Assembly: GCF_020149765.1 (NCBI RefSeq)
Contig: NZ_CP083809.1
Location: 2,108,001-2,172,000 of the forward strand
Length of the DNA: 64,000 bases
Reading direction: 5' to 3'
DNA from: Pantoea agglomerans
GTDB lineage: Bacteria; Pseudomonadota; Gammaproteobacteria; Enterobacterales; Enterobacteriaceae
This document shows positions 3 through 21,788 of this stretch, in pieces. A program made the translations under genes and the position numbers. Numbering within the stretch: position 1 is the first letter of the stretch; every line of letters starts with the position of its first letter. The notes beneath the pieces were generated by a model. That model did not search any database and was not told where the DNA came from. It saw only the letters and a program-made list of their open reading frames with translations.

Positions 3-347
3 GAGGCAAAGCCTGTCGGGTACGGAATGCAGCGCAAAGACAATGCGACTTTTGGTTCATGGCTTAAGCCGAAGCATTTAGTGAAAGAAAATCTAATTTA
101 TCGACCAGCCCCCCTCTACTTGGCTCAGCCCGTTACCGCGACAGCAATACCGGCCGGATGGAAACTCGTGCCGGTCGAGCCGACAAAGGAGATGGTGTCA
201 GCAGGGCAAGACCAGTTTGAGGAGTGCGTAGACTGCGGTTTCGATAGCTGTGAAGACGGTTCAGTTCATGAATACAGCAAAATCTCATCTGATGCGCCTT
301 ATCAGGTTTTTAGGGCCATGCTGGCAGCAGCGCCGGAGGTGGAGTGA
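3..347 (+). CDS. Phage-type hypothetical protein, 5' end outside window
   Basis: The reading frame is open from the first bases of the window, so the gene probably starts upstream; the first internal ATG is at 27. The protein has the look of small prophage proteins that contain an 'AIPAGWKLVPVEPT' segment in the middle and end in 'AMLAAAPEVE', a composition common in lambdoid and P22-like accessory regions. Function is unknown. Its stop overlaps the next start (TGATG), so it is the first visible gene of a tightly packed phage operon of three genes. Confidence 0.6.
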   Translation, partial: EAKPVGYGMQRKDNATFGSWLKPKHLVKENLIYRPAPLYLAQPVTATAIPAGWKLVPVEPTKEMVSAGQDQFEECVDCGFDSCEDGSVHEYSKISSDAPYQVFRAMLAAAPEVE

Positions 348-10677: not shown

Positions 10678-13641
10678 ATGTTGGCTCCCCTGATCGATGA
10701 CAAACAAAAAATCACGCTGATTGAAGAGAGCGGCGTGCAGTTTCTGGATTTCGGCCTGCGCATCGCAGCAGGCCAGGCGCGCCGCCAGTTTGTGCGCCAG
10801 ACCGCAAACGGTCCGCTGCTGCGCCTCAACGTCGACGGCAACAGCGGCAAGTTTCTGCTCTATCCGCAGGATGGCGGCGCGCCGGAAGTGGTGCGCCCGG
10901 AATCGGACGTGGCGCTGGCCGACTCGCTGACGCTGCTGGCGGACTGCTGGCTGCCCCTGCCGATGCTGCGCTGCGCCAGCGGCCGTCGCTTTATCGGCGG
11001 CCCGGAGAACTGGGCGCGCCTGCGCCTCACCGCGCTGGCGCAGCCCGATGCGGCGGGCAATACCCACCGCGTGACCCTGGCGTTCGATACCCGCTGCGTG
11101 GCGCAGGAGGATGGCGGCGAGCAGCTCGGCCTGACCGCCGCCGACGCGCAAAACGGCGTCACCTTCTCACTCGCCTGGCACAACTACGAGCTGGGCGAGT
11201 TTCTCGATCATATCTGGGTAGACGGCTGGCTGCGTGAGGCGTTCAGCGACCGCGTCGGCGACCGCCGCGAACAGGCGATCGCGCAGGCGCTGCGCGAGTT
11301 TGAGTATCAGGCGCACTACCTGAACCTGCTGGAGCTGCTCGGCGAGCAGCTTAACCTGAACGATATCCATCTTCAGGCCGCCACCCAGCAAACGCCGGCG
11401 GTGAACGTCGATATTATTCTCGACGTCGGCAACTCGCACACCTGCGGCATCCTGGTAGAAGATCACCCGGAAGAGAGCAACGGCCTGAAGCAGACCTACG
11501 AACTCCAGCTGCGCGACCTTTCGCAGCCGCATCAGGTCTATAACGAACTGTTTGACAGCCGGCTGGAGTTTGCGGAAACGAACTTCGGCAAGGCGAGCTT
11601 TTCGCTGCAGAGCGGCCGCGAAAACGCCTTTATGTGGCCGTCGCTGACGCGCGTGGGCCGCGAGGCGAGCCGCCTGGCGCTGCAGCGCGCCGGCCTTGAG
11701 GGCAGCACCGGCATCTCCAGCCCGCGCCGCTATCTCTGGGACGAGGCGCGCTACCAGCCAGGCTGGCGCTTTAACCAGCCGCAGGGTGCAAACGAGCCGC
11801 AGGCCAACGCCGCGCCCTTCACCTTTCTGCTGAATGACGAAGGTGAGCCGCTGCACGCGCTCGCCGAGGACGATCGCCTGCCGGTCTTTTCCGCCCACTA
11901 CAGCCGCAGCTCGCTGATGACCTTTATGCTGTGCGAACTGCTGGCGCAGGCGCTGATGCAGATGAACAGCGCCGCGCAGCGCCAGCGCATGCCGCAGAGC
12001 CACGCGCCGCGCCAGCTGCGCCACGTTATCCTGACCCTGCCGTCGGCGATGCCGAAGCCGGAGCGCGAGATTTTCCGCCGCCGCATGCAGCAGGCGATCG
12101 CGCTGGTGTGGAAAGCCGAGGGCTGGCACGCGGCCGACGAGCCGTTTGACGCCGCCACGCCGCCCACGTGCCGCAAGCCGGTGCCGGACGTGCAGATGGA
12201 GTGGGACGAGGCTACCTGTGGCCAGATGGTCTGGCTGTTCAACGAAACGCAGGTCAACTTCGCCGGACGCGCGCAGGACTTCTTTAGCAGCACCGCGCGC
12301 CCGGATCGTCCGCGCGAAGCGGACGAAGTGCCGGGCAAAAGCCTGCGCATCGCCTCGATCGATATCGGCGGCGGCACCACCGATCTGGCGATTACCCACT
12401 ACCGTCTCGACGACGGCCAGGGCAATAACGTCAAAATTACCCCGCGCCTGCTGTTCCGCGAAGGCTTTAAAGTCGCGGGCGACGATATTCTGCTGGACGT
12501 TATCCAGCTCTGGATCCTGCCTGCGCTGCAGCAGAGCCTGCAAAAGGCGGGCCTGACGCTGGCCGAGCCGCTGCTGAACAAGCTGTTCGGCCACGACGGC
12601 CGCCTCGACGGGCAGGCTACGCTGCGCCAGCAGGCGACGCTGCAGCTGTTTATTCCGCTGGCGCAGGCGGTGCTGGAGCGCTACGAAAGCTGGGACCCGC
12701 TGGAGAGCCACGCGGAGATTAACGCCCTGTTCGGCGAACTGGTGGAGAGCCGTCCGGCCGACGCGGTGCTCGCCTTTATCAACGGCGAGATCCAGCGCGC
12801 CCTGGGCGCCGACAGCGGTTTCGATCTGCTGGAAGTGCCGCTGATCGTCAGCCTTGCACAGCTGCACGCCGAGTTTATGCAGCACCGCATGGCGATTATT
12901 CCGGCGCTGCGCTCAATGTGCGAGGTGGTGTCGCTCTATCAGTGCGATGTGCTGCTGCTCACCGGCCGCCCGTCGCGCTTCCCCGGCATTCAGGCGCTGG
13001 TGCGCCATCTGCAGCCGCTGCCGGGCAGCCGCATTCTGTCGCTGGAGGGCTATCACACCAGCGACTGGTATCCGTTCAACAAACATGGCCGCATCGACAA
13101 CCCGAAATCCACCGCGGCGGTAGGCGCGATGCTCTGCCTGCTGGCGCTGGATCTGCGCCTTAACAGCTTCTGGTTCCGCGCGGGCGATTTCGAGCCCTAC
13201 TCGACGATCCGCTATCTTGGCGTGCTGGATGAAAATCAGGCGCTGACCGACGATAATCTCTGCTACGGCGATATCGATCTCGACGACCGGAGCTTCGCGC
13301 TGGACCGCAAAAGCAGCTTCCGCATTCGCGGCAACGTCTGCCTCGGCTTCCGCCAGCTCGACAACGATCGCTGGCCCGCGTCGCCGCTCTACAGCCTGAC
13401 CCTGAACGACGCTCAGCTGGCGCGCAAGGTGGCCGGAGAGAGCGTGCTGCGCGTGAAGCTGGCGGTTGCGCCCGGCCCGACGCTGCCGGGGCCGGAGCGC
13501 CTGGTGCTGAGCGACGCCCGCCTTGACGATGGCACCCGCGTGCCGCTCGAGCAGCTGAGCCTGAAGCTCAACACCCTCTCGCCGACGGGCAACGCCAACG
13601 CCCAGTACTGGATTGACAGCGGAAGCCTTTGTAAACGATGA
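10678..13641 (+). CDS. srfB: SrfB family protein with actin/Hsp70-like nucleotide-binding motifs
   Basis: 987 residues, matching the large size of SrfB. Two phosphate-loop-like motifs of the actin/Hsp70 superfamily are visible: 'DIILDVGNSHTCGILVED' at about 244-261 and 'SIDIGGGTTDLAITHY' at about 559-574; a later 'VLLLTGRPSRFPGIQALV' region near 760 resembles the adenosine motif of the same fold. So the protein probably binds ATP. Annotated as a virulence factor in other bacteria, but the activity is not established. Its stop overlaps the srfC start (ATGA), implying translational coupling and a complex. Confidence 0.87.
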   Translation: MLAPLIDDKQKITLIEESGVQFLDFGLRIAAGQARRQFVRQTANGPLLRLNVDGNSGKFLLYPQDGGAPEVVRPESDVALADSLTLLADCWLPLPMLRCASGRRFIGGPENWARLRLTALAQPDAAGNTHRVTLAFDTRCVAQEDGGEQLGLTAADAQNGVTFSLAWHNYELGEFLDHIWVDGWLREAFSDRVGDRREQAIAQALREFEYQAHYLNLLELLGEQLNLNDIHLQAATQQTPAVNVDIILDVGNSHTCGILVEDHPEESNGLKQTYELQLRDLSQPHQVYNELFDSRLEFAETNFGKASFSLQSGRENAFMWPSLTRVGREASRLALQRAGLEGSTGISSPRRYLWDEARYQPGWRFNQPQGANEPQANAAPFTFLLNDEGEPLHALAEDDRLPVFSAHYSRSSLMTFMLCELLAQALMQMNSAAQRQRMPQSHAPRQLRHVILTLPSAMPKPEREIFRRRMQQAIALVWKAEGWHAADEPFDAATPPTCRKPVPDVQMEWDEATCGQMVWLFNETQVNFAGRAQDFFSSTARPDRPREADEVPGKSLRIASIDIGGGTTDLAITHYRLDDGQGNNVKITPRLLFREGFKVAGDDILLDVIQLWILPALQQSLQKAGLTLAEPLLNKLFGHDGRLDGQATLRQQATLQLFIPLAQAVLERYESWDPLESHAEINALFGELVESRPADAVLAFINGEIQRALGADSGFDLLEVPLIVSLAQLHAEFMQHRMAIIPALRSMCEVVSLYQCDVLLLTGRPSRFPGIQALVRHLQPLPGSRILSLEGYHTSDWYPFNKHGRIDNPKSTAAVGAMLCLLALDLRLNSFWFRAGDFEPYSTIRYLGVLDENQALTDDNLCYGDIDLDDRSFALDRKSSFRIRGNVCLGFRQLDNDRWPASPLYSLTLNDAQLARKVAGESVLRVKLAVAPGPTLPGPERLVLSDARLDDGTRVPLEQLSLKLNTLSPTGNANAQYWIDSGSLCKR

Positions 13642-16013
13642 GAACTGTAAAACCGCGCCAGCCGCAGACGCTGGCAAAACGCCTTGGCCTGCTGCAGGAG
13701 GCGCTTAACGCCAGCCTGGGCTGGATCGCCGAACACCGCGACGCGTCGCCGCGCCTGGCGCTGGAGGCGGAAACCTTCACGCGCCAGCTGCGCCGCGCCC
13801 GCGTGCAGAGCGATGCGCTGGCCCAGCAGGTCGCCCGTCCGGTGACGCTGGCGCTGTTCGGCCAGTCGCAGGCGGGTAAAGCCTGGCTGCTGAGCGAAAT
13901 GGTCGCCGACGCGCAGGGGCAGCTGCTGACGCGCCTCGGCGAAAAAAGCCTGAACGTCTTCCAGCAGATCAATCCCGGCAATCTCGACTTCGCTGCGGCG
14001 ACCCGCTACTGCCATCAGCGCGACCCCCTTTCCGGTGAATGGCCGGTGGAGCTGCAGCTGCTGGGCGAGGCGGAAATTTTACGCCTGGTGCTGAGCTGCC
14101 GTCATACGGCGGCGCAGCCGGAAAGCGCCCAGCTCGACCAGCAGCTGCAGCGCCTGCAGCGCCAGCGGCTCAGCGCCCCGGTGGGCGGGCTCGACAGCGA
14201 CGCGCTGGTCACGCTCTGGGCCTGGAGCCGTCGTCACCGCTGTCACGATCCGCGGCTCGACCGCCATTTCTGGCCGCAGGCGGTCGAACTGGCCCCGGCG
14301 CTCAGCGTGGACGACCGGGTGCAGCTCTTTGCGCTGCTGTGGCCGACGCAGCCGGAGCTGAGCGAGGCGCTGCGCGCGCTGCTGCATCTGCGCCATCAGC
14401 TGCGCAGTGCCAGCCGCGTGCTTGCGCCGCTTAGCCTGCTGACGGATGAGGCGCTGCTGCCGAGCGAACAGCTGATCGCGCCCGCCAGCGAGCAGGATCG
14501 GCAGATGAAGGTGGAAGTCTGCCCGCTGAACGGCAACCGCATCGGCAAGCCGCAGCAGGTGGCGCTCGGCTGGCTGGCGCTGCTGACCCTGGAGCTGACC
14601 ATCCCCTTAAGCTCCACGCCGCGCACCGCCCTGTTTGACGACGCCGATATGCTGGATCTGCCCGCGCCCGGCGCGCCCGCCGATGCGGCGGCGCTGGAGG
14701 AGCGTCAGCGTCTGGAGCAGCAGGATCCGCTGCTTGCCCGACTGCTGGAGCAGAAACGCGCCCTGCTGCCTGGCTTTTACGCCACGCGCCAGGGGATCGA
14801 TTTAATGCTGGTCTGCACCGCCGCCAGCCAGCGCCAGGATGTCGATGTCGCCAGCCGCGCGCTGCGCGAATGGCAGCTGCATCAGCCGCCGCGCGAAAAC
14901 GGCGAAAAGCCGCGCCTGATTTGGGCCATCACCCCTTATGACGCGCGCCATCAGCAGATTAACGTCGATGAGGCGGTACAGCGCCAGATCGGCCAGCCCG
15001 GTCAGCGCTGGGGATCGATGCTGGCGCTCGATCGCGCCGGCGTCGATCGCATGGCGGAGTGGCTGCAGGATGAGATGCAGCCCGATGCGCGCCGCGATCG
15101 GCTGCTGGCCGAGCTGCGCGCCCTGCAGCACAGCGTGCTGGAGCGTCGACTGCTGCCCTGGACCGATGCCGAAGCGAGCGCCGAACAGGCGGCGCGCAGG
15201 CAGACCATCGCCGATACGCTGCTGAAATGTCTGCAGCACCGCACCGGCCTGCACGGCGAACTGCTGGAGCGGCTGCAGCCGCCGCGCGAAACGCTGCGCC
15301 AGCTCTGGCTCAGCCAGCATGATGCGCCGACCACGGCCGCGGCGATCCGCGCTGAGGCGCCCGCGCAGCATTTCGGCGTCGGATTTGAATTCGATCTCTT
15401 TAGCGATACGCCGCTGGCCGAGCCGGCGGGCGCGCCGCATCAGGTCAGCGCCGTGGGACAGAGCTTTGCGCGCCAGGTAATGGCGCTGTGGCTCGATCAT
15501 CTGCGCGAGCTGCCGGAGAACCGCAGCCTGCTGACGCTGCTGAATGTGGATCGCGGCACGCTGGAGTGGCTGGTAGAAGAGCTGATCGTTGCCAGCTTCC
15601 GCCTCGATATGCTGACGTCGCTGGAGCAGGCGCTGCACGAGCCGGAAAACCCCACCGTTACCCATGAGTCGCGCGCCGATCGTCAGGTTTCCCGCGCCAT
15701 GACGGTGCTGGGGGATTTTGTCGCCTGGCTGGGCTTTTTACAGCGTGATGAAGCGGAACGGCCGCCGAGCCGCGTCAATCGCGGCCAGCCGATTTTTGCG
15801 CGTCCGCCCGCGCCGAGCGTCAGCTTCTCTGCCGGACAGCGCCTGACGCGCCTCTCCGCCGCGCCCGCCAACCACACCGCCTACTATATTTACGACTGGC
15901 TGGTCGGGCTCAATTCGGTGATCCTGGAGAACAACGGTCACGCCGGTGGACGCGACGTCACGCCCGCCGCGCGCGCCGCGCTGACCGCCATCCTCGCGAC
16001 GCTGCGCAGCTAA
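13638..16013 (+). CDS. srfC: SrfC family protein with P-loop-like motif
   Basis: 791 residues, third gene of srfABC. Near residues 73-85 the sequence L-F-G-Q-S-Q-A-G-K-A-W-L-L has the layout of a Walker A loop (GxxxxGK) but with Ala instead of Ser/Thr after the Lys. Long helical, Gln/Arg/Leu-rich stretches (about 145-300) follow, and 'LALDRAGVDRMAEWL' near 455. Possibly a large GTPase-like protein; this is inference. The gene ends tail to tail with barstar, the two stop codons overlapping by three bases. Confidence 0.85.
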   Translation: MRTVKPRQPQTLAKRLGLLQEALNASLGWIAEHRDASPRLALEAETFTRQLRRARVQSDALAQQVARPVTLALFGQSQAGKAWLLSEMVADAQGQLLTRLGEKSLNVFQQINPGNLDFAAATRYCHQRDPLSGEWPVELQLLGEAEILRLVLSCRHTAAQPESAQLDQQLQRLQRQRLSAPVGGLDSDALVTLWAWSRRHRCHDPRLDRHFWPQAVELAPALSVDDRVQLFALLWPTQPELSEALRALLHLRHQLRSASRVLAPLSLLTDEALLPSEQLIAPASEQDRQMKVEVCPLNGNRIGKPQQVALGWLALLTLELTIPLSSTPRTALFDDADMLDLPAPGAPADAAALEERQRLEQQDPLLARLLEQKRALLPGFYATRQGIDLMLVCTAASQRQDVDVASRALREWQLHQPPRENGEKPRLIWAITPYDARHQQINVDEAVQRQIGQPGQRWGSMLALDRAGVDRMAEWLQDEMQPDARRDRLLAELRALQHSVLERRLLPWTDAEASAEQAARRQTIADTLLKCLQHRTGLHGELLERLQPPRETLRQLWLSQHDAPTTAAAIRAEAPAQHFGVGFEFDLFSDTPLAEPAGAPHQVSAVGQSFARQVMALWLDHLRELPENRSLLTLLNVDRGTLEWLVEELIVASFRLDMLTSLEQALHEPENPTVTHESRADRQVSRAMTVLGDFVAWLGFLQRDEAERPPSRVNRGQPIFARPPAPSVSFSAGQRLTRLSAAPANHTAYYIYDWLVGLNSVILENNGHAGGRDVTPAARAALTAILATLRS

Positions 16014-16279
16014 TCCCGCTTCAGGCGCAGGTCGCCCTCCAGCGCCTGCGCCGCCTCTTCCAGCAGCGCCAGCACGGCGGCAAACTCGTCGCGCTTTTCC
16101 GCCTCCGCCGCGTGGCGCAGATGAATACGCGCCGGCAGCGCCATGCCGCCGGTCAGCCAGTCCCACAGCGCGTCCAGATTATTGCCGAAGGCGAACGGGC
16201 AATGACTCTGCTGCGCCAGCGTCTGGTAGAGCGCATCGCGATCCGCCAGGCGACGAAAGTCGAGCGTAATGGTCAGCAT
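16010..16279 (-). CDS. Barstar-family ribonuclease inhibitor
   Basis: 89 residues, the length of Bacillus barstar. The barnase-binding helix is kept: N-N-L-D-A-L-W-D-W-L-T-G, in which D36, W39 and D40 match barstar D35, W38 and D39, the residues that plug the RNase active site. It starts two bases after the barnase stop, so the two are co-translated, and it stays in the cytosol (no signal peptide), protecting the cell from unexported enzyme. Related to E. coli YhcO. Confidence 0.88.
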   Translation of the reverse strand: MLTITLDFRRLADRDALYQTLAQQSHCPFAFGNNLDALWDWLTGGMALPARIHLRHAAEAEKRDEFAAVLALLEEAAQALEGDLRLKRD

Positions 16280-16281
16280 CT

Positions 16282-16716
16282 TCAGGGCACCTGCTTAAAG
16301 CTGCGGTAGTGATCGGTGGTGATATAGACCAGGCCGTCAGAAGAGTAGACCAGCCGATCCGCCTCGCGATGGCCGCAGCGATAGTTGACGTCAGCTTCAT
16401 ACCAGAGGCGTCCGCTGCGCTGCGGCAGGCGCTTTTCACGATTGCCGAAGCGGTCACCGCCGATCGCTTTGCCCGGCAGCACCTCGCACAGATTGCCTTT
16501 GGCCGGATCCCAGCCGCGACGGCGCGCGTCATTTTTGCTGATGTAATATGAGGGTAGCTGCTGATGTTGCAGCAGGTAACGCGCCACGGTACGCGCATCG
16601 GTCAGCGAGCTGATATCACCGGTTTCAGGCGTGGGTGAAACGTTCAGGTGGGGTTTAAGACCGGCCCAGGCGGCCGCAAGCACGATGAACAGTGCAATCC
16701 AGAGTTTTTTTGACAT
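16282..16716 (-). CDS. Secreted barnase-type ribonuclease
   Basis: 144 residues. The first 20 form a signal peptide or membrane anchor (KK then a Leu/Ala/Trp-rich core). From about residue 40 it aligns to Bacillus barnase without gaps at an offset of 34: K61, R93, E107, R117, R121 and H136 match barnase K27, R59, E73, R83, R87 and H102, so the general base (E73) and acid (H102) are present. Cys77 and Cys114 fall on barnase positions 43 and 80 and could form a disulfide in the periplasm. Catalysis: guanyl-preferring RNA cleavage by 2',3'-cyclisation. Immediately followed by its barstar. Confidence 0.92.
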   Translation of the reverse strand: MSKKLWIALFIVLAAAWAGLKPHLNVSPTPETGDISSLTDARTVARYLLQHQQLPSYYISKNDARRRGWDPAKGNLCEVLPGKAIGGDRFGNREKRLPQRSGRLWYEADVNYRCGHREADRLVYSSDGLVYITTDHYRSFKQVP

Positions 16717-16775
16717 GATGGCATCCCAGACAACAGGACGCTGATAATACCAGCTTTAGCGGGCAGATACAGCGC

Positions 16776-16794
16776 GGGCCAGCGAAGCTGGCCC
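16776..16794. other. Hairpin between rarA-like gene and barnase gene
   Basis: GGGCCAGC-gaa-GCTGGCCC gives a perfect 8-bp stem downstream of the regulator stop. There is no T-run on the minus strand after it, so it may slow but is not a textbook terminator. Confidence 0.4.
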
Positions 16795-16802
16795 TGCGGG
16801 GA

Positions 16803-17147
16803 TCACTGCATGGCTTGCATCTGCGCCCCATGTCGACGCCAGGCGCCTGGCGCGACGCCGTACTGGCGTTTAAAGCTGCGGTTGAAAGACTGCTGCGAGT
16901 CGAAGCCCAGCGAAATCGCCACGTTGAGGATCGGCTCGTTGGTGGTCGTCAGACGATCCGCGGATTTCTTCAGCTTCTTGATGCGGATGTACTCACCCAG
17001 CGGATAGCCGGTGTGCTCTTTAAACATACGCTGCAGGTGCCATTTGGAATAGCCTGCGCGCTCCGATACGGTGTCCAGATCCAGACGTGCTTCGATGTTG
17101 TTATCGATCCAGTCGATTAGATCGTGAATAAATGCGTCGCTCATCAT
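16803..17147 (-). CDS. rarA: MarA/SoxS/RarA-type AraC-family activator
   Basis: About 113 residues: only the two helix-turn-helix motifs of AraC proteins, without a ligand domain, as in MarA, SoxS, RamA and RarA. First HTH around 'DTVSERAGYSKWHLQRMFKE' (locator), second around 'VAISLGFDSQQSFNRSFKRQ'. ATG at 17147 or the adjacent ATG at 17144, with GGGAG upstream. Divergent from OqxA/OqxB-like pump genes, the position of rarA in Klebsiella, so it probably activates them; the name rests on context, since the sequence is intermediate between MarA and SoxS. Confidence 0.7.
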   Translation of the reverse strand: MMSDAFIHDLIDWIDNNIEARLDLDTVSERAGYSKWHLQRMFKEHTGYPLGEYIRIKKLKKSADRLTTTNEPILNVAISLGFDSQQSFNRSFKRQYGVAPGAWRRHGAQMQAMQ

Positions 17148-17457
17148 CCCATTTTCTCCCGTCGCCGTTGCGAACAGTATCAGTATCAGTTGCAATTACA
17201 CTTTAAGGGTGACTGACTTTGCCATTTAATGCAAGTTGAATTGATACATTAAATGCCGCACTCGCCGTAAGGTCATTCTCTGCCCCGCTACGCCTGTGCA
17301 TCGCCCCCAGCAAAACCGCACATAAAGTGTATCAGATATTCTTGCAGTTGCAGGATACCCGAGCCTACACTCCTCGCGATAAATTGCAATCTTAAAAGTT
17401 GCAAATATTGGCCCGCCTTTGTGGGCTCTTTTTTTAACGCTATGCGGAATAACAATA
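17148..17457. promoter_or_regulatory. Divergent rarA/oqxA regulatory region
   Basis: 310 bp without a gene. It holds a marbox-like sequence ACCGCACATAAAGTGTATC (17315-17333; agrees with most of AYnGCACnnWnnRYYAAAY), a TTGCAA-N9-TTGCAA inverted repeat at about 17386-17406 that could be a regulator site, and a terminator-like hairpin just before oqxA. All are candidate elements from pattern only. Confidence 0.45.
17411..17435 (+). terminator. Intrinsic terminator in the oqxA leader
   Basis: GCCCGC-CTTT-GTGGGC (one G-U pair in RNA) followed by CTTTTTTTT, ending about 22 bases upstream of the oqxA ATG. There is no other plus-strand gene upstream that it could terminate, since rarA is on the other strand. 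It may work as an attenuator of the efflux operon. Confidence 0.6.
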
Positions 17458-18618
17458 ATGAACAGACAAACGAAGTGGGTTCGTCAGGGTTCAACCCTTC
17501 TGGGCGCGGTGCTGCTCAGCAGCATACTCAGCGGATGCGACAGAGGCGTGGCGCAAAACGCCCCGCCGCCCCCTCCTCAGGTCAGCGTCGCCGACGTGGT
17601 GGTGAAACCCGTCAGCCAGTGGGACAGCTTTAATGGCCGCATCGAGGCGGTGCAGAGCGTGCAGCTGCGCCCGCGCGTCTCTGGCTATATCGACGCGGTG
17701 AACTACCGCGAAGGCGACGAAGTGAAAAAGGGTCAGGTCCTGTTCACCATCGACGACCGCACCTACCGCGCCGCGCTGGAGCAGGCGAAGGCCGAACTGG
17801 CGCGCGCACGCAGTCAGGCGGCGCTGGCGCGCAGCGAGTCGGCGCGCACCGAGAAGCTGATCGGCACTCAGGCGGTGTCGCGTGAGCAGTGGGAACAGCG
17901 TCGCTCCGCCGCCAGCCAGGCGCAGGCGGACGTGCTCTCTGCTGAAGCGGCCGTGGATATGGCGCAGCTCAATCTTGACTTTACCCGCGTGACCGCGCCG
18001 ATCGACGGACGCGCCAGCCGCGCCATGATCACCACCGGCAACCTGGTGACCGCCGGCGACAGCGCCAGCGTACTCACCTCGCTGGTGTCGCAGGATCGCA
18101 TGTATGTCTACTTCGACGTCGATGAAGCCACCTTCCTGCACTACCAGGCGATGGCGCGTCAGGGCCAGCAGCGCGGCTCGCTGCCGGTGGAAATCGGCCT
18201 GGCGGGCGAAAGCGGCTATCCGCATCGCGGCATCGTCGACTTCACCGACAACCAGCTGACCGCCAGCACCGGCACCATCCGCATGCGCGCCCAGCTCGAC
18301 AACCGCCAGCGCCAGTTTACGCCCGGCCTTTTCTCCCGCGTGCGCCTGCCCGGCAGCGCGGAGTTCCAGGCGCTGCTGATTGACGACAAGGCGGTGCTGA
18401 CCGACCAGGATCGCAAGTATGTCTATGTGGTGGACAAAGAGGGCAAAGCGCAGCGCCGCGACATCCAGCCCGGCGCGATGGCCGAGGGTCTGCGCATTGT
18501 GAAAAGCGGGCTGCAGTCGGGCGATCGGGTGATTGTCGACGGGCTGCAAAAAGTGTTTATGCCCGGAATGCCGGTAACGGCCCAGCAGGTCGCGATGCGC
18601 GCGGCTAACGCCAACTAA
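17458..18618 (+). CDS. oqxA: RND efflux periplasmic adaptor, OqxA-like lipoprotein
   Basis: 386 residues from the ATG at 17458. Signal peptide with lipobox L-S-G-C near residue 27, so lipid-anchored to the inner membrane. Family features: 'RPRVSGYIDAVNYREGDEV' lipoyl domain half (locator), coiled-coil hairpin rich in Ala/Arg/Glu (about 105-170), 'LNLDFTRVTAPIDGRA', beta-barrel and membrane-proximal 'LTDQDRKYVYVVD'. It bridges the RND pump and an outer-membrane channel (TolC by analogy). 17 bp separate it from oqxB. Confidence 0.88.
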   Translation: MNRQTKWVRQGSTLLGAVLLSSILSGCDRGVAQNAPPPPPQVSVADVVVKPVSQWDSFNGRIEAVQSVQLRPRVSGYIDAVNYREGDEVKKGQVLFTIDDRTYRAALEQAKAELARARSQAALARSESARTEKLIGTQAVSREQWEQRRSAASQAQADVLSAEAAVDMAQLNLDFTRVTAPIDGRASRAMITTGNLVTAGDSASVLTSLVSQDRMYVYFDVDEATFLHYQAMARQGQQRGSLPVEIGLAGESGYPHRGIVDFTDNQLTASTGTIRMRAQLDNRQRQFTPGLFSRVRLPGSAEFQALLIDDKAVLTDQDRKYVYVVDKEGKAQRRDIQPGAMAEGLRIVKSGLQSGDRVIVDGLQKVFMPGMPVTAQQVAMRAANAN

Positions 18619-18635
18619 CTGAGGCTACTGCCGCT

Positions 18636-21600
18636 ATGGACTTTTCCCGCTTTTTTATCGACCGGCCGATATTCGCCGCCGTTTTGTCGATTTTAATTTT
18701 CGTGACCGGCCTGATCGCCATTCCGCTGCTGCCGATCAGTGAATACCCGGACGTGGTACCGCCCAGCGTGCAGGTGCGCGCCGAATATCCCGGTGCCAAC
18801 CCGAAGGTGATTGCCGATTCGGTGGCTACGCCGCTGGAAGAGGCGATCAACGGCGTTGAAAATATGATGTATATGAAATCGGTGGCCGGTTCCGACGGCG
18901 TGCTGGTGACTACCGTCACCTTCCGCCCGGGCACCGATCCCGATCAGGCGCAGGTGCAGGTGCAAAACCGCGTCGCCCAGGCGGAAGCGCGCCTGCCGGA
19001 AGATGTGCGCCGCCTCGGCATCACCACCCAGAAGATGTCGCCAACGCTGACGCTGGTTGTGCATATGTTCTCGCCGCACGGCAAGTACGACTCGCTCTAC
19101 CTGCGCAACTACGCCACGCTGAAGGTGAAAGATGAGCTGGCGCGCCTGCCTGGCGTGGGCCAGATTCAGATCTTCGGCGCGGGCGAATATGCGATGCGCG
19201 TCTGGCTCGATCCCAACAAAGTGGCTGCGCGCGGCCTGACCGCCGCCGACGTGGTGACGGCGATGCAGGAGCAGAACGTGCAGGTGTCAGCCGGCCAGCT
19301 GGGTGCCGAGCCGCTGAAGAAGCAGTCCGATTTTCTGCTCTCCATCAACACCGCTGGCCGCCTTGAAAACGAGCAGCAGTTCGGCAACATCATCCTGAAA
19401 ACCTCGGATGACGGCTCACTGGTACGCCTGCGCGACGTGGCGCGTATCGAGATGGGCTCTGGCAGCTATGCCCTGCGTTCGCAGCTCAACAATAAGGACG
19501 CGGTCGGCATCGGTATCTTCCAGGCGCCGGGGGCCAACGCCATCGATCTCTCCAACGCGGTGCGCGCTAAGATGAACGAGCTGGCAACGCGCTTCCCGGA
19601 CGATGTGAAGTGGGCTGCCCCTTACGACCCTACCGTGTTCGTGCGCGACTCTATCAGCGCGGTGGTGCATACGCTGCTGGAAGCGGTTGCCCTGGTGGTT
19701 CTGGTGGTGATCCTGTTCCTGCAGACCTGGCGCGCCTCGATCATTCCGCTGCTGGCGGTGCCGGTTTCGGTCGTCGGGACGTTCAGCGTGCTCTACCTGC
19801 TCGGCTTCTCGCTGAATACCCTGAGCCTCTTCGGGCTGGTGCTGGCGATCGGCATCGTGGTGGATGACGCCATCGTGGTGGTGGAGAACGTCGAGCGTAA
19901 TATCGCGCTGGGCCTTTCACCGCAGGCGGCGGCGCATCAGGCGATGCGCGAGGTCTCCGGGCCGATTATCGCTATTGCGCTGGTGCTGTGCGCCGTGTTC
20001 GTGCCAATGGCGTTTCTCTCCGGCGTGACCGGCCAGTTCTATAAGCAGTTCGCGGTGACTATCGCCATTTCCACGGTGATCTCCGCCATCAACTCGCTGA
20101 CCCTGTCTCCTGCGCTGGCGGCGAAGCTGCTAAAAGATCACCATGCGCCGAAAGATATTCCGACGCGAATTATCGATCGCCTGCTCGGCTGGCTGTTCCG
20201 TCCGTTCAACCGCTTCTTTAACAGCAGCGCGCACGGCTACGAAGGCCTGGTAGGCAAAACGCTGCGCCGCCGCGGCGCGGTGTTCGGCGTCTATGTGCTG
20301 CTGCTGGCGGGCGCGGGCTTTATGTTCCACGCCGTGCCGGGCGGCTTTATCCCGACGCAGGACAAACTCTATCTGATCGGCGGCGTGAAGATGCCGGAAG
20401 GCTCTTCGCTGGAGCGTACCGACGAGATGATCCGCAAGATGAGCGAAATCGGCATGAATACCGAAGGCGTCGCCTATTCTGTCGCCTTCCCCGGCCTGAA
20501 TGCGCTGCAGTTCACTAACACGCCCAATACCGGCACGGTGTTCTTCGGTCTGAAGCCCTTTAGCGAGCGTAAGCACAGTGCGGCAGAGATTAACGCGGAG
20601 ATCAATGCGAAGATTTCTCAGCTGCAGCAGGGGTTCGGCTTCTCCATTATGCCGCCCCCTATCCTCGGTCTGGGCCAGGGTTCCGGCTATTCGCTCTACG
20701 TGCAGGACCGCGCGGGGCTGGGCTACGGCGCACTGCAGACGGCGATTAACACCCTCTCCGGCGCGGTGATGCAGACGCCAGGGATGCACTATCCTATTTC
20801 GTCCTACCAGGCGAATGTGCCCCAGCTCGACGTGCAGGTGGATCGCGATAAAGCCAAGGCGCAGGGCGTATCGCTGACCGATCTCTTCAGCACGCTGCAA
20901 ACCTATCTCGGTTCGTCATACGTCAACGACTTCAACCGTTTCGGCCGCACCTGGCGCGTGATGGCGCAGGCGGATGGCGAGTTCCGCGACAGCGTTGAGG
21001 ATATCGCCAACCTGCGCACCCGCAACGATCGCGGCGAGATGGTGCCTGTCGGCAGCATGGTGCATATCACCACCACCTACGGGCCCGACCCGGTGATCCG
21101 CTATAACGGCTATCCGGCGGCGGACCTGATTGGCGATGCCGATCCGCGTATCCTCTCGTCCGCGCAGGCGATGACCCAGCTGGAAGCGATGTCCGGTCAG
21201 CTTTTGCCTAACGGCATGAATATTGAGTGGACCGACCTGAGCTATCAGCAGGCGACGCAGGGTAATACTGCCTTTATCGTCTTCCCGGTGGCGGTGCTGC
21301 TGGCGTTCCTGGTACTGGCCGCGCTCTATGAGAGCTGGACGCTGCCGCTGGCGGTGATCCTAATCGTACCGGTGACCATGCTGTCGGCGCTGGTCGGCGT
21401 CTGGCTGACGGGCGGCGATAACAACGTCTTTGTGCAGGTCGGCCTGGTGGTGCTGATGGGGCTGGCGTGTAAGAACGCCATTCTTATTGTGGAGTTCGCC
21501 CGCGAGCTGGAGATGCAGGGCAAAGGCATTGTGGAAGCGGCGCTGGAGGCCTGTCGCCTGCGTCTGCGTCCCATTGTGATGACTTCTATCGCCTTTATCG

Positions 21601-21788
21601 CCGGTACCGTGCCGCTGATTCTGGGCGAAGGCGCGGGCGCAGAAGTGCGCGGCGTTACCGGTATTACCGTGTTCGCCGGGATGCTGGGCGTCACGCTGTT
21701 CGGTCTGTTCCTGACCCCGGTGTTCTACGTCACGCTGCGTAAGCTGGTGACGCGCAAGGCACCGCAAGAAACGATGCAGACGGTGTAA
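18636..21788 (+). CDS. oqxB: RND multidrug efflux transporter, OqxB-like
   Basis: 1050 residues, the size of OqxB. Start M-D-F-S-R-F-F-I-D-R-P-I-F and long stretches agree with Klebsiella OqxB as I remember it. TM4 carries 'GIVVDDAIVVVENV' with the two proton-relay Asp residues; 'VFVPMAFLSGVTGQFYKQFA' and 'GQGSGYSL' are further RND landmarks. In other species OqxAB exports quinolones, olaquindox, nitrofurans and other compounds; substrates here are inferred. Followed by a strong terminator. Confidence 0.92.
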   Translation: MDFSRFFIDRPIFAAVLSILIFVTGLIAIPLLPISEYPDVVPPSVQVRAEYPGANPKVIADSVATPLEEAINGVENMMYMKSVAGSDGVLVTTVTFRPGTDPDQAQVQVQNRVAQAEARLPEDVRRLGITTQKMSPTLTLVVHMFSPHGKYDSLYLRNYATLKVKDELARLPGVGQIQIFGAGEYAMRVWLDPNKVAARGLTAADVVTAMQEQNVQVSAGQLGAEPLKKQSDFLLSINTAGRLENEQQFGNIILKTSDDGSLVRLRDVARIEMGSGSYALRSQLNNKDAVGIGIFQAPGANAIDLSNAVRAKMNELATRFPDDVKWAAPYDPTVFVRDSISAVVHTLLEAVALVVLVVILFLQTWRASIIPLLAVPVSVVGTFSVLYLLGFSLNTLSLFGLVLAIGIVVDDAIVVVENVERNIALGLSPQAAAHQAMREVSGPIIAIALVLCAVFVPMAFLSGVTGQFYKQFAVTIAISTVISAINSLTLSPALAAKLLKDHHAPKDIPTRIIDRLLGWLFRPFNRFFNSSAHGYEGLVGKTLRRRGAVFGVYVLLLAGAGFMFHAVPGGFIPTQDKLYLIGGVKMPEGSSLERTDEMIRKMSEIGMNTEGVAYSVAFPGLNALQFTNTPNTGTVFFGLKPFSERKHSAAEINAEINAKISQLQQGFGFSIMPPPILGLGQGSGYSLYVQDRAGLGYGALQTAINTLSGAVMQTPGMHYPISSYQANVPQLDVQVDRDKAKAQGVSLTDLFSTLQTYLGSSYVNDFNRFGRTWRVMAQADGEFRDSVEDIANLRTRNDRGEMVPVGSMVHITTTYGPDPVIRYNGYPAADLIGDADPRILSSAQAMTQLEAMSGQLLPNGMNIEWTDLSYQQATQGNTAFIVFPVAVLLAFLVLAALYESWTLPLAVILIVPVTMLSALVGVWLTGGDNNVFVQVGLVVLMGLACKNAILIVEFARELEMQGKGIVEAALEACRLRLRPIVMTSIAFIAGTVPLILGEGAGAEVRGVTGITVFAGMLGVTLFGLFLTPVFYVTLRKLVTRKAPQETMQTV

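Follow-up and report, generated by a model that had tools for sequence, protein, structure and literature searches.

We analysed a 64,000-nucleotide stretch of the Pantoea agglomerans contig NZ_CP083809.1 (positions 2,108,001 to 2,172,000), hereafter the window. A gene for a barnase-type ribonuclease begins with an ATG at 16716 and ends with a stop codon at 16284-16282. The coordinates given for it in the initial annotation (16282..16716) are exact, and the strand, absent from that annotation, is minus. The features of the locus are as follows.

16803..17147, minus strand: small AraC-family regulator (HTH_18, 80 bits), just upstream of the barnase-type gene and seen in Pantoea loci
16282..16716, minus strand: barnase-type ribonuclease gene, 144 aa (ORF, translation, PF00545 at 60.3 bits, best PDB phmmer E 5.7e-38)
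16657..16704, minus strand: hydrophobic N-terminal segment of the ribonuclease, residues 5-20, a putative signal peptide or membrane anchor (translation; helix 3-18 of the model)
16486..16488, minus strand: TGC codon of Cys77, which aligns with barnase position 43 (sequence, ungapped alignment)
16375..16377, minus strand: TGC codon of Cys114, which aligns with barnase position 80 (sequence, ungapped alignment)
16010..16279, minus strand: barstar-type inhibitor, 89 aa (PF01337, 68 bits), beginning 2 bases past the stop codon of the barnase gene

The barnase-barstar pair of Pantoea lies between the convergent SrfB/SrfC genes and the AraC regulator, with an AcrA/AcrB-type pump beyond (10678-21788), and relatives of AraC, AcrA, barnase, barstar and SrfC are all found in 29 of the 31 Pantoea loci. 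The AraC-family gene and the barnase gene are possibly co-transcribed; a consensus scan of positions 15900-17500 found no promoter-like site. No functional tie of the ribonuclease to the SrfB/SrfC, AraC or efflux genes was seen in the neighbourhood. On a symbiont contig of the Pantoea whose name refers to the stink bug Euschistus servus (L099), the ribonuclease gene is broken, with barstar and SrfC similarity still adjacent.

The 144-residue protein exceeds the cut-off of the PF00545 profile by a wide margin (60.3 bits against 24), and a family search of the genome identified its gene as the sole match. NCBIfam has no family for either the barnase-type protein or barstar. Judged by its sequence, the protein is a barnase-type RNase of the long form of PF00545, for which guanyl-specific or guanyl-preferring activity would be expected. 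The closest named copy among the relatives kept (80 of 95) is that of Pantoea septica LMG 5345 (L031), at 96% identity.

A sequence search of the PDB placed residues 44-143 on barnase residues 10-109 without a gap and with a constant offset of 34. This is the alignment that the initial annotation had proposed, and a structural alignment gave the same register. The protein is identical to the barnase of PDB entry 1bne at 57 of 100 aligned residues, including Lys27, Asp54, Arg59, Glu60, Glu73, Arg83, Arg87, Asp101, His102 and Tyr103 (barnase numbering); differences from barnase include S57->G, F82->H and S85->A. Lys27, Arg59, Glu73, Arg83, Arg87 and His102 make up the catalytic set of barnase, and all six are identical at this offset, in agreement with the earlier claim that the catalytic residues are conserved. 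Cys77 and Cys114, said to be the only cysteines of the mature protein and to fall on barnase positions 43 and 80, do so and are the only two in the entire 144 residues. The three best distinct PDB sequences, ranking above binase and wild-type barnase, are 7mrx, 6pqk and 1bne. The last two are A43C/S80C barnases according to their PDB titles, 1bne being the disulfide mutant, and 7mrx has cysteines at the same two positions in its sequence. The parent Bacillus barnase has no cysteine, and the binase stretch aligned in the PDB search has none either.

A structural model predicted from 26 sequences has a mean pLDDT of 87.8; from residue 41 onward, the block means lie at 92-98. Its top match in Foldseek is 1bne (E 1e-15, rmsd 0.8 Å); in VIA-align 2, 1bne ranks third, tied with other barnases, with residues 38..144 superposed on 4..110 in register. 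Both programs thus confirm the barnase fold for the predicted model. As barnases lacking the Cys pair score nearly equally in both, the comparison speaks to the backbone, not to the bond. Cys77 is carried by the third helix of the domain (residues 76-79 of the model); the model also has an N-terminal helix spanning residues 3-18.

The N-terminus is basic and hydrophobic in this protein and appeared hydrophobic by eye in the 25 entries with both cysteines that were inspected. The enzyme is therefore probably exported, and then cleaved or anchored. In two relatives, the hydrophobic N-terminus contains a cysteine that is not found in the window's protein: LAAC in Mixta mediterraneensis (L035), which we take to be lipobox-like, and LVVC in Pantoea dispersa (L054). 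A DsbB protein is present in all six Pseudomonadota genomes tested that carry the pair, including the genome of the window, so that a route to disulfide formation exists there. Among eight Bacteroidota genomes with the pair, four have a VKOR protein and none has DsbB, while a DsbB-family protein is encoded in all three genomes of the Bacillota sample whose barnase has Ala43 and Ser80. The presence of DsbB or VKOR was considered as a cause of the Cys pair and rejected, as it gave no clean split (10 of 14 genomes with the pair versus 4 of 12 without). In Aerococcus tenax (CP127381.1; L189), the gene immediately before barnase and barstar is annotated ‘thiol reductase thioredoxin’; this barnase has Trp43 and Gly80.

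The distribution of the two cysteines was surveyed at 110 loci, made up of 80 of the 95 contig relatives and 30 further loci, with the window's own included. Both positions are cysteine in 100 of these and not in the other ten, one of which is the broken Euschistus symbiont copy. Relatives were also collected by searching sampled genomes with PF00545, which matched 35 of 398 genomes in Pseudomonadota, 7 of 345 in Bacteroidota, 11 of 246 in Actinomycetota and 11 of 299 in Bacillota (one of these below the cut-off; two weak matches with inner stops in the Bacillota sample yielded no entry). The last three phyla were assigned by the titles of the loci on which the samples were centred. Three of four plasmid-collection records and the relatives from viral contigs were added to the set. 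The three viral-contig relatives, two of them partial, all lack the Cys pair, and no relative was matched in the phage collection. When the different full-length barnase-type domains are counted (n = 115, omitting the broken copy, the partial domains L198 and L199, and 49 short RNase Sa-type members without the segment that contains position 43), both cysteines are present in 92, neither in 23 and exactly one in none. The survey of homologues for a lone cysteine, suggested at the outset as a way to refute a natural bond, thus found none in 115 domains. Within the genus, the gene is present in 33 of the 35 genomes searched, and all 33 copies have both cysteines. The domains with the pair contain exactly two cysteines in 118 of 119 entries, and their identity to the window's protein falls as low as ∼55% (L108 and others).

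The carriers found all belong to Pseudomonadota, mostly Enterobacterales, or to Bacteroidota; the Bacillota and Actinomycetota relatives in the set lack it, and none of the carriers came from the 246 actinomycetotal or 299 Bacillota genomes sampled. Named carriers in Enterobacterales are Pantoea, Mixta, Tatumella, Erwinia, Enterobacter, Izhakiella, Winslowiella, Rosenbergiella, Morganella, Proteus and Xenorhabdus, and those in Bacteroidota comprise Chryseobacterium, a Chitinophagales bin and another bin. One further named carrier is a Pseudomonadota bin (L108), and the other entries with the pair are from genomes of the same phylum as the window or as Chryseobacterium. The residues at 43/80 in Bacillota and in two actinobacterial bins are A/S, N/T, H/S, N/P, W/G, D/G, E/G, N/G or R/G; one viral-contig relative has S/G, and the gammaproteobacterial L192 has W/G.

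To ask how often the pair arose, a tree was built without the two Cys columns; with only 98 columns, it is weak evidence either way on a single clade of carriers. In the careful tree the pair needs two changes, as L192 joins the long branch of L108, which has the pair. With L192, L181 and L197 removed, one change is sufficient (SH-aLRT 86); with L108, L181 and L197 removed, two are needed. An AU test did not reject a single clade of carriers (p 0.209). These sequence data allow a single gain of the pair, with L192 as the one gammaproteobacterial exception (its genome, G1455, encodes DsbB). The covariation of positions 43 and 80 is strict, but one or two evolutionary changes account for it, so the 92 sequences cannot be counted as independent trials.

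Other cysteine arrangements occur elsewhere in the superfamily. The RNase Sa-like relatives from Pseudomonadota (L111-L137, L151, L152 and L154-L156), which lack the position-43 segment, often have a different Cys pair at columns 124 and 130 of the window's protein, located across the β3-β4 hairpin. Both cysteines are present in 20 of these 32 entries and one alone in none; on sequence grounds, the superfamily contains a further all-or-none pair distinct from that at 43-80. Two actinobacterial bins (L106 and L109) have a cysteine at each of barnase positions 46 and 74, which may form yet another bond. Seven Bacillota relatives (L103, L104, L107, L110, L176, L177 and L190) combine Trp43 and Gly80 with a cysteine at position 74.

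If two cysteines were positioned at random among 110 residues, the chance of their falling on one named pair would be 1 in 5995, and that of their falling on any of the three engineered barnase pairs identified from PDB titles (43-80, 70-92 and 85-102) would be ∼5 in 10,000. These odds overstate the surprise, because native disulfides need positions that are spatially close and well oriented. The coincidence is also less odd than it appears at first sight because engineers and evolution share few permissible pairs. Given a natural bond at all, we would guess the chance of a match with an engineered pair at perhaps 1 in 10 to 1 in 30, and we judge the match at 43-80 to be a pleasing rather than a startling convergence. 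The noteworthy part is that the pair marks a Gram-negative branch and is apparently undescribed: full-text searches of the open-licence PMC literature listed no paper recognized as describing a natural 43-80 disulfide in the barnase family.

We have considerable confidence in the explanation that the protein, a guanyl RNase, is exported or anchored in the envelope, is inhibited by barstar in the cytoplasm and acquires a 43-80 disulfide after export. The enzyme would be a guanyl-preferring, barnase-type RNase, either exported or anchored in the inner membrane, and the barstar from the next gene would act as the cytoplasmic antidote. After export, a Cys77-Cys114 disulfide would tie the third helix to the loop between sheet strands 2 and 3, as in engineered A43C/S80C barnase. 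Such a bond would stabilize the enzyme outside the cytoplasm and leave the active site and barstar binding untouched. Clarke and Fersht reportedly found in 1993 that the engineered 43-80 bond stabilizes barnase and slows its unfolding; we infer that the bond forms in the natural enzyme and has a similar stabilizing role. By its title, 6pqk shows the A43C/S80C enzyme in complex with a barstar variant, so the two replacements still allow the inhibitor to bind. The pair, as a mark of the branch found in Enterobacterales and Bacteroidota, was most likely gained once, as a pair, and may then have been passed on both vertically and by horizontal transfer. Against this explanation stand the failure of the disulfide machinery to predict the pair, L192 and its DsbB-encoding genome included, the small number of evolutionary changes behind the covariation, and the 12 of 119 entries with the pair in which no barstar was found directly downstream.

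A different role for the same bond would be that of a redox switch, in which the enzyme, when reduced, would have a loose fold and do no harm in the cytoplasm, and would turn fully active upon oxidation after export. The all-or-none occurrence of the pair in an enzyme harmful to its own cytoplasm would suit such a switch, as would the few carriers (3 of 119) for which the normally present barstar was not found. However, barstar lies directly downstream of the gene in 107 of the 119 entries (and elsewhere in the locus in nine), which renders a second safeguard unneeded, and the cysteine-free Bacillus barnase manages with barstar alone. We consider the switch improbable. The same low probability applies to its extension to the whole Gram-negative branch as a lock between compartments, whereby these enzymes would be marginally folded when reduced and would be hardened and activated once oxidized in the envelope; if true, oxidation and barstar would share the protection of the producer.

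Two further explanations dispense with a functional disulfide. Free thiols, or a metal site, could have fallen by chance on the engineered positions, but the two cysteines always occur together in intact full-length domains, a disulfide mutant at the very same pair is present in the PDB (1bne, by its title), and the protein has an export-like N-terminus; this reading is very unlikely. Slightly less probable still is a Cys pair that arose by chance in a single lineage and has no selective value. It would require only one or two changes on the tree, which speaks for it; nonetheless, the pair persists in 92 distinct sequences, some of them only ∼55% identical to the window's protein, neither cysteine has been lost alone in the 115 domains, and L192 is the only possible loss of the pair. 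An exported, barstar-controlled RNase with a stabilizing disulfide is thus the reading that we prefer.

Barnase is among the best studied models of protein folding, and 43-80 is a classic engineered disulfide. A natural branch with this pair, set against the Bacillus enzymes without the bond, would allow its effects on stability, slower unfolding, protease resistance and producer safety to be tested, and would supply folding studies with natural barnases that presumably depend on DsbA.

The family itself is known; it is the disulfide-bearing subgroup that seems to be undescribed in the searchable open-licence literature. The order of barnase followed by barstar resembles the toxin-then-immunity order of polymorphic-toxin barnase domains with Imm-Barstar, as far as these are described in the parts of PMC3482391 consulted. 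Unlike those toxins, the protein is a small, stand-alone one, since the 144-residue ORF is too short for a carrier or repeats. The consulted parts of the same source note that simple barnase-barstar pairs are widely distributed and may be an early form of the toxin-immunity order (PMC3482391). RNases Sa, Sa2 and Sa3 of Streptomyces (1rge, 1py3 and 1mgr) are a shorter form than the long-form enzyme studied here, and the short-form relatives in our set are without the segment bearing position 43. The disulfide of RNase Sa lies elsewhere than 43-80. Barnase and binase are secreted, and barnase has barstar as its partner. The window's protein shares its fold and catalytic residues with wild-type barnase and binase (PF00545), but these have Ala and Ser where it has two cysteines, and its N-terminus may be an anchor. 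The nearest parallel is the A43C/S80C barnase (1bne and 6pqk, and 7mrx with the same cysteines), with which it has in common the two Cys positions, the fold and an ungapped alignment. In contrast to 1bne, which was made in the laboratory on the Bacillus enzyme, the pair is natural here and is found in a Gram-negative enzyme that is identical to it at just over half of the aligned residues.
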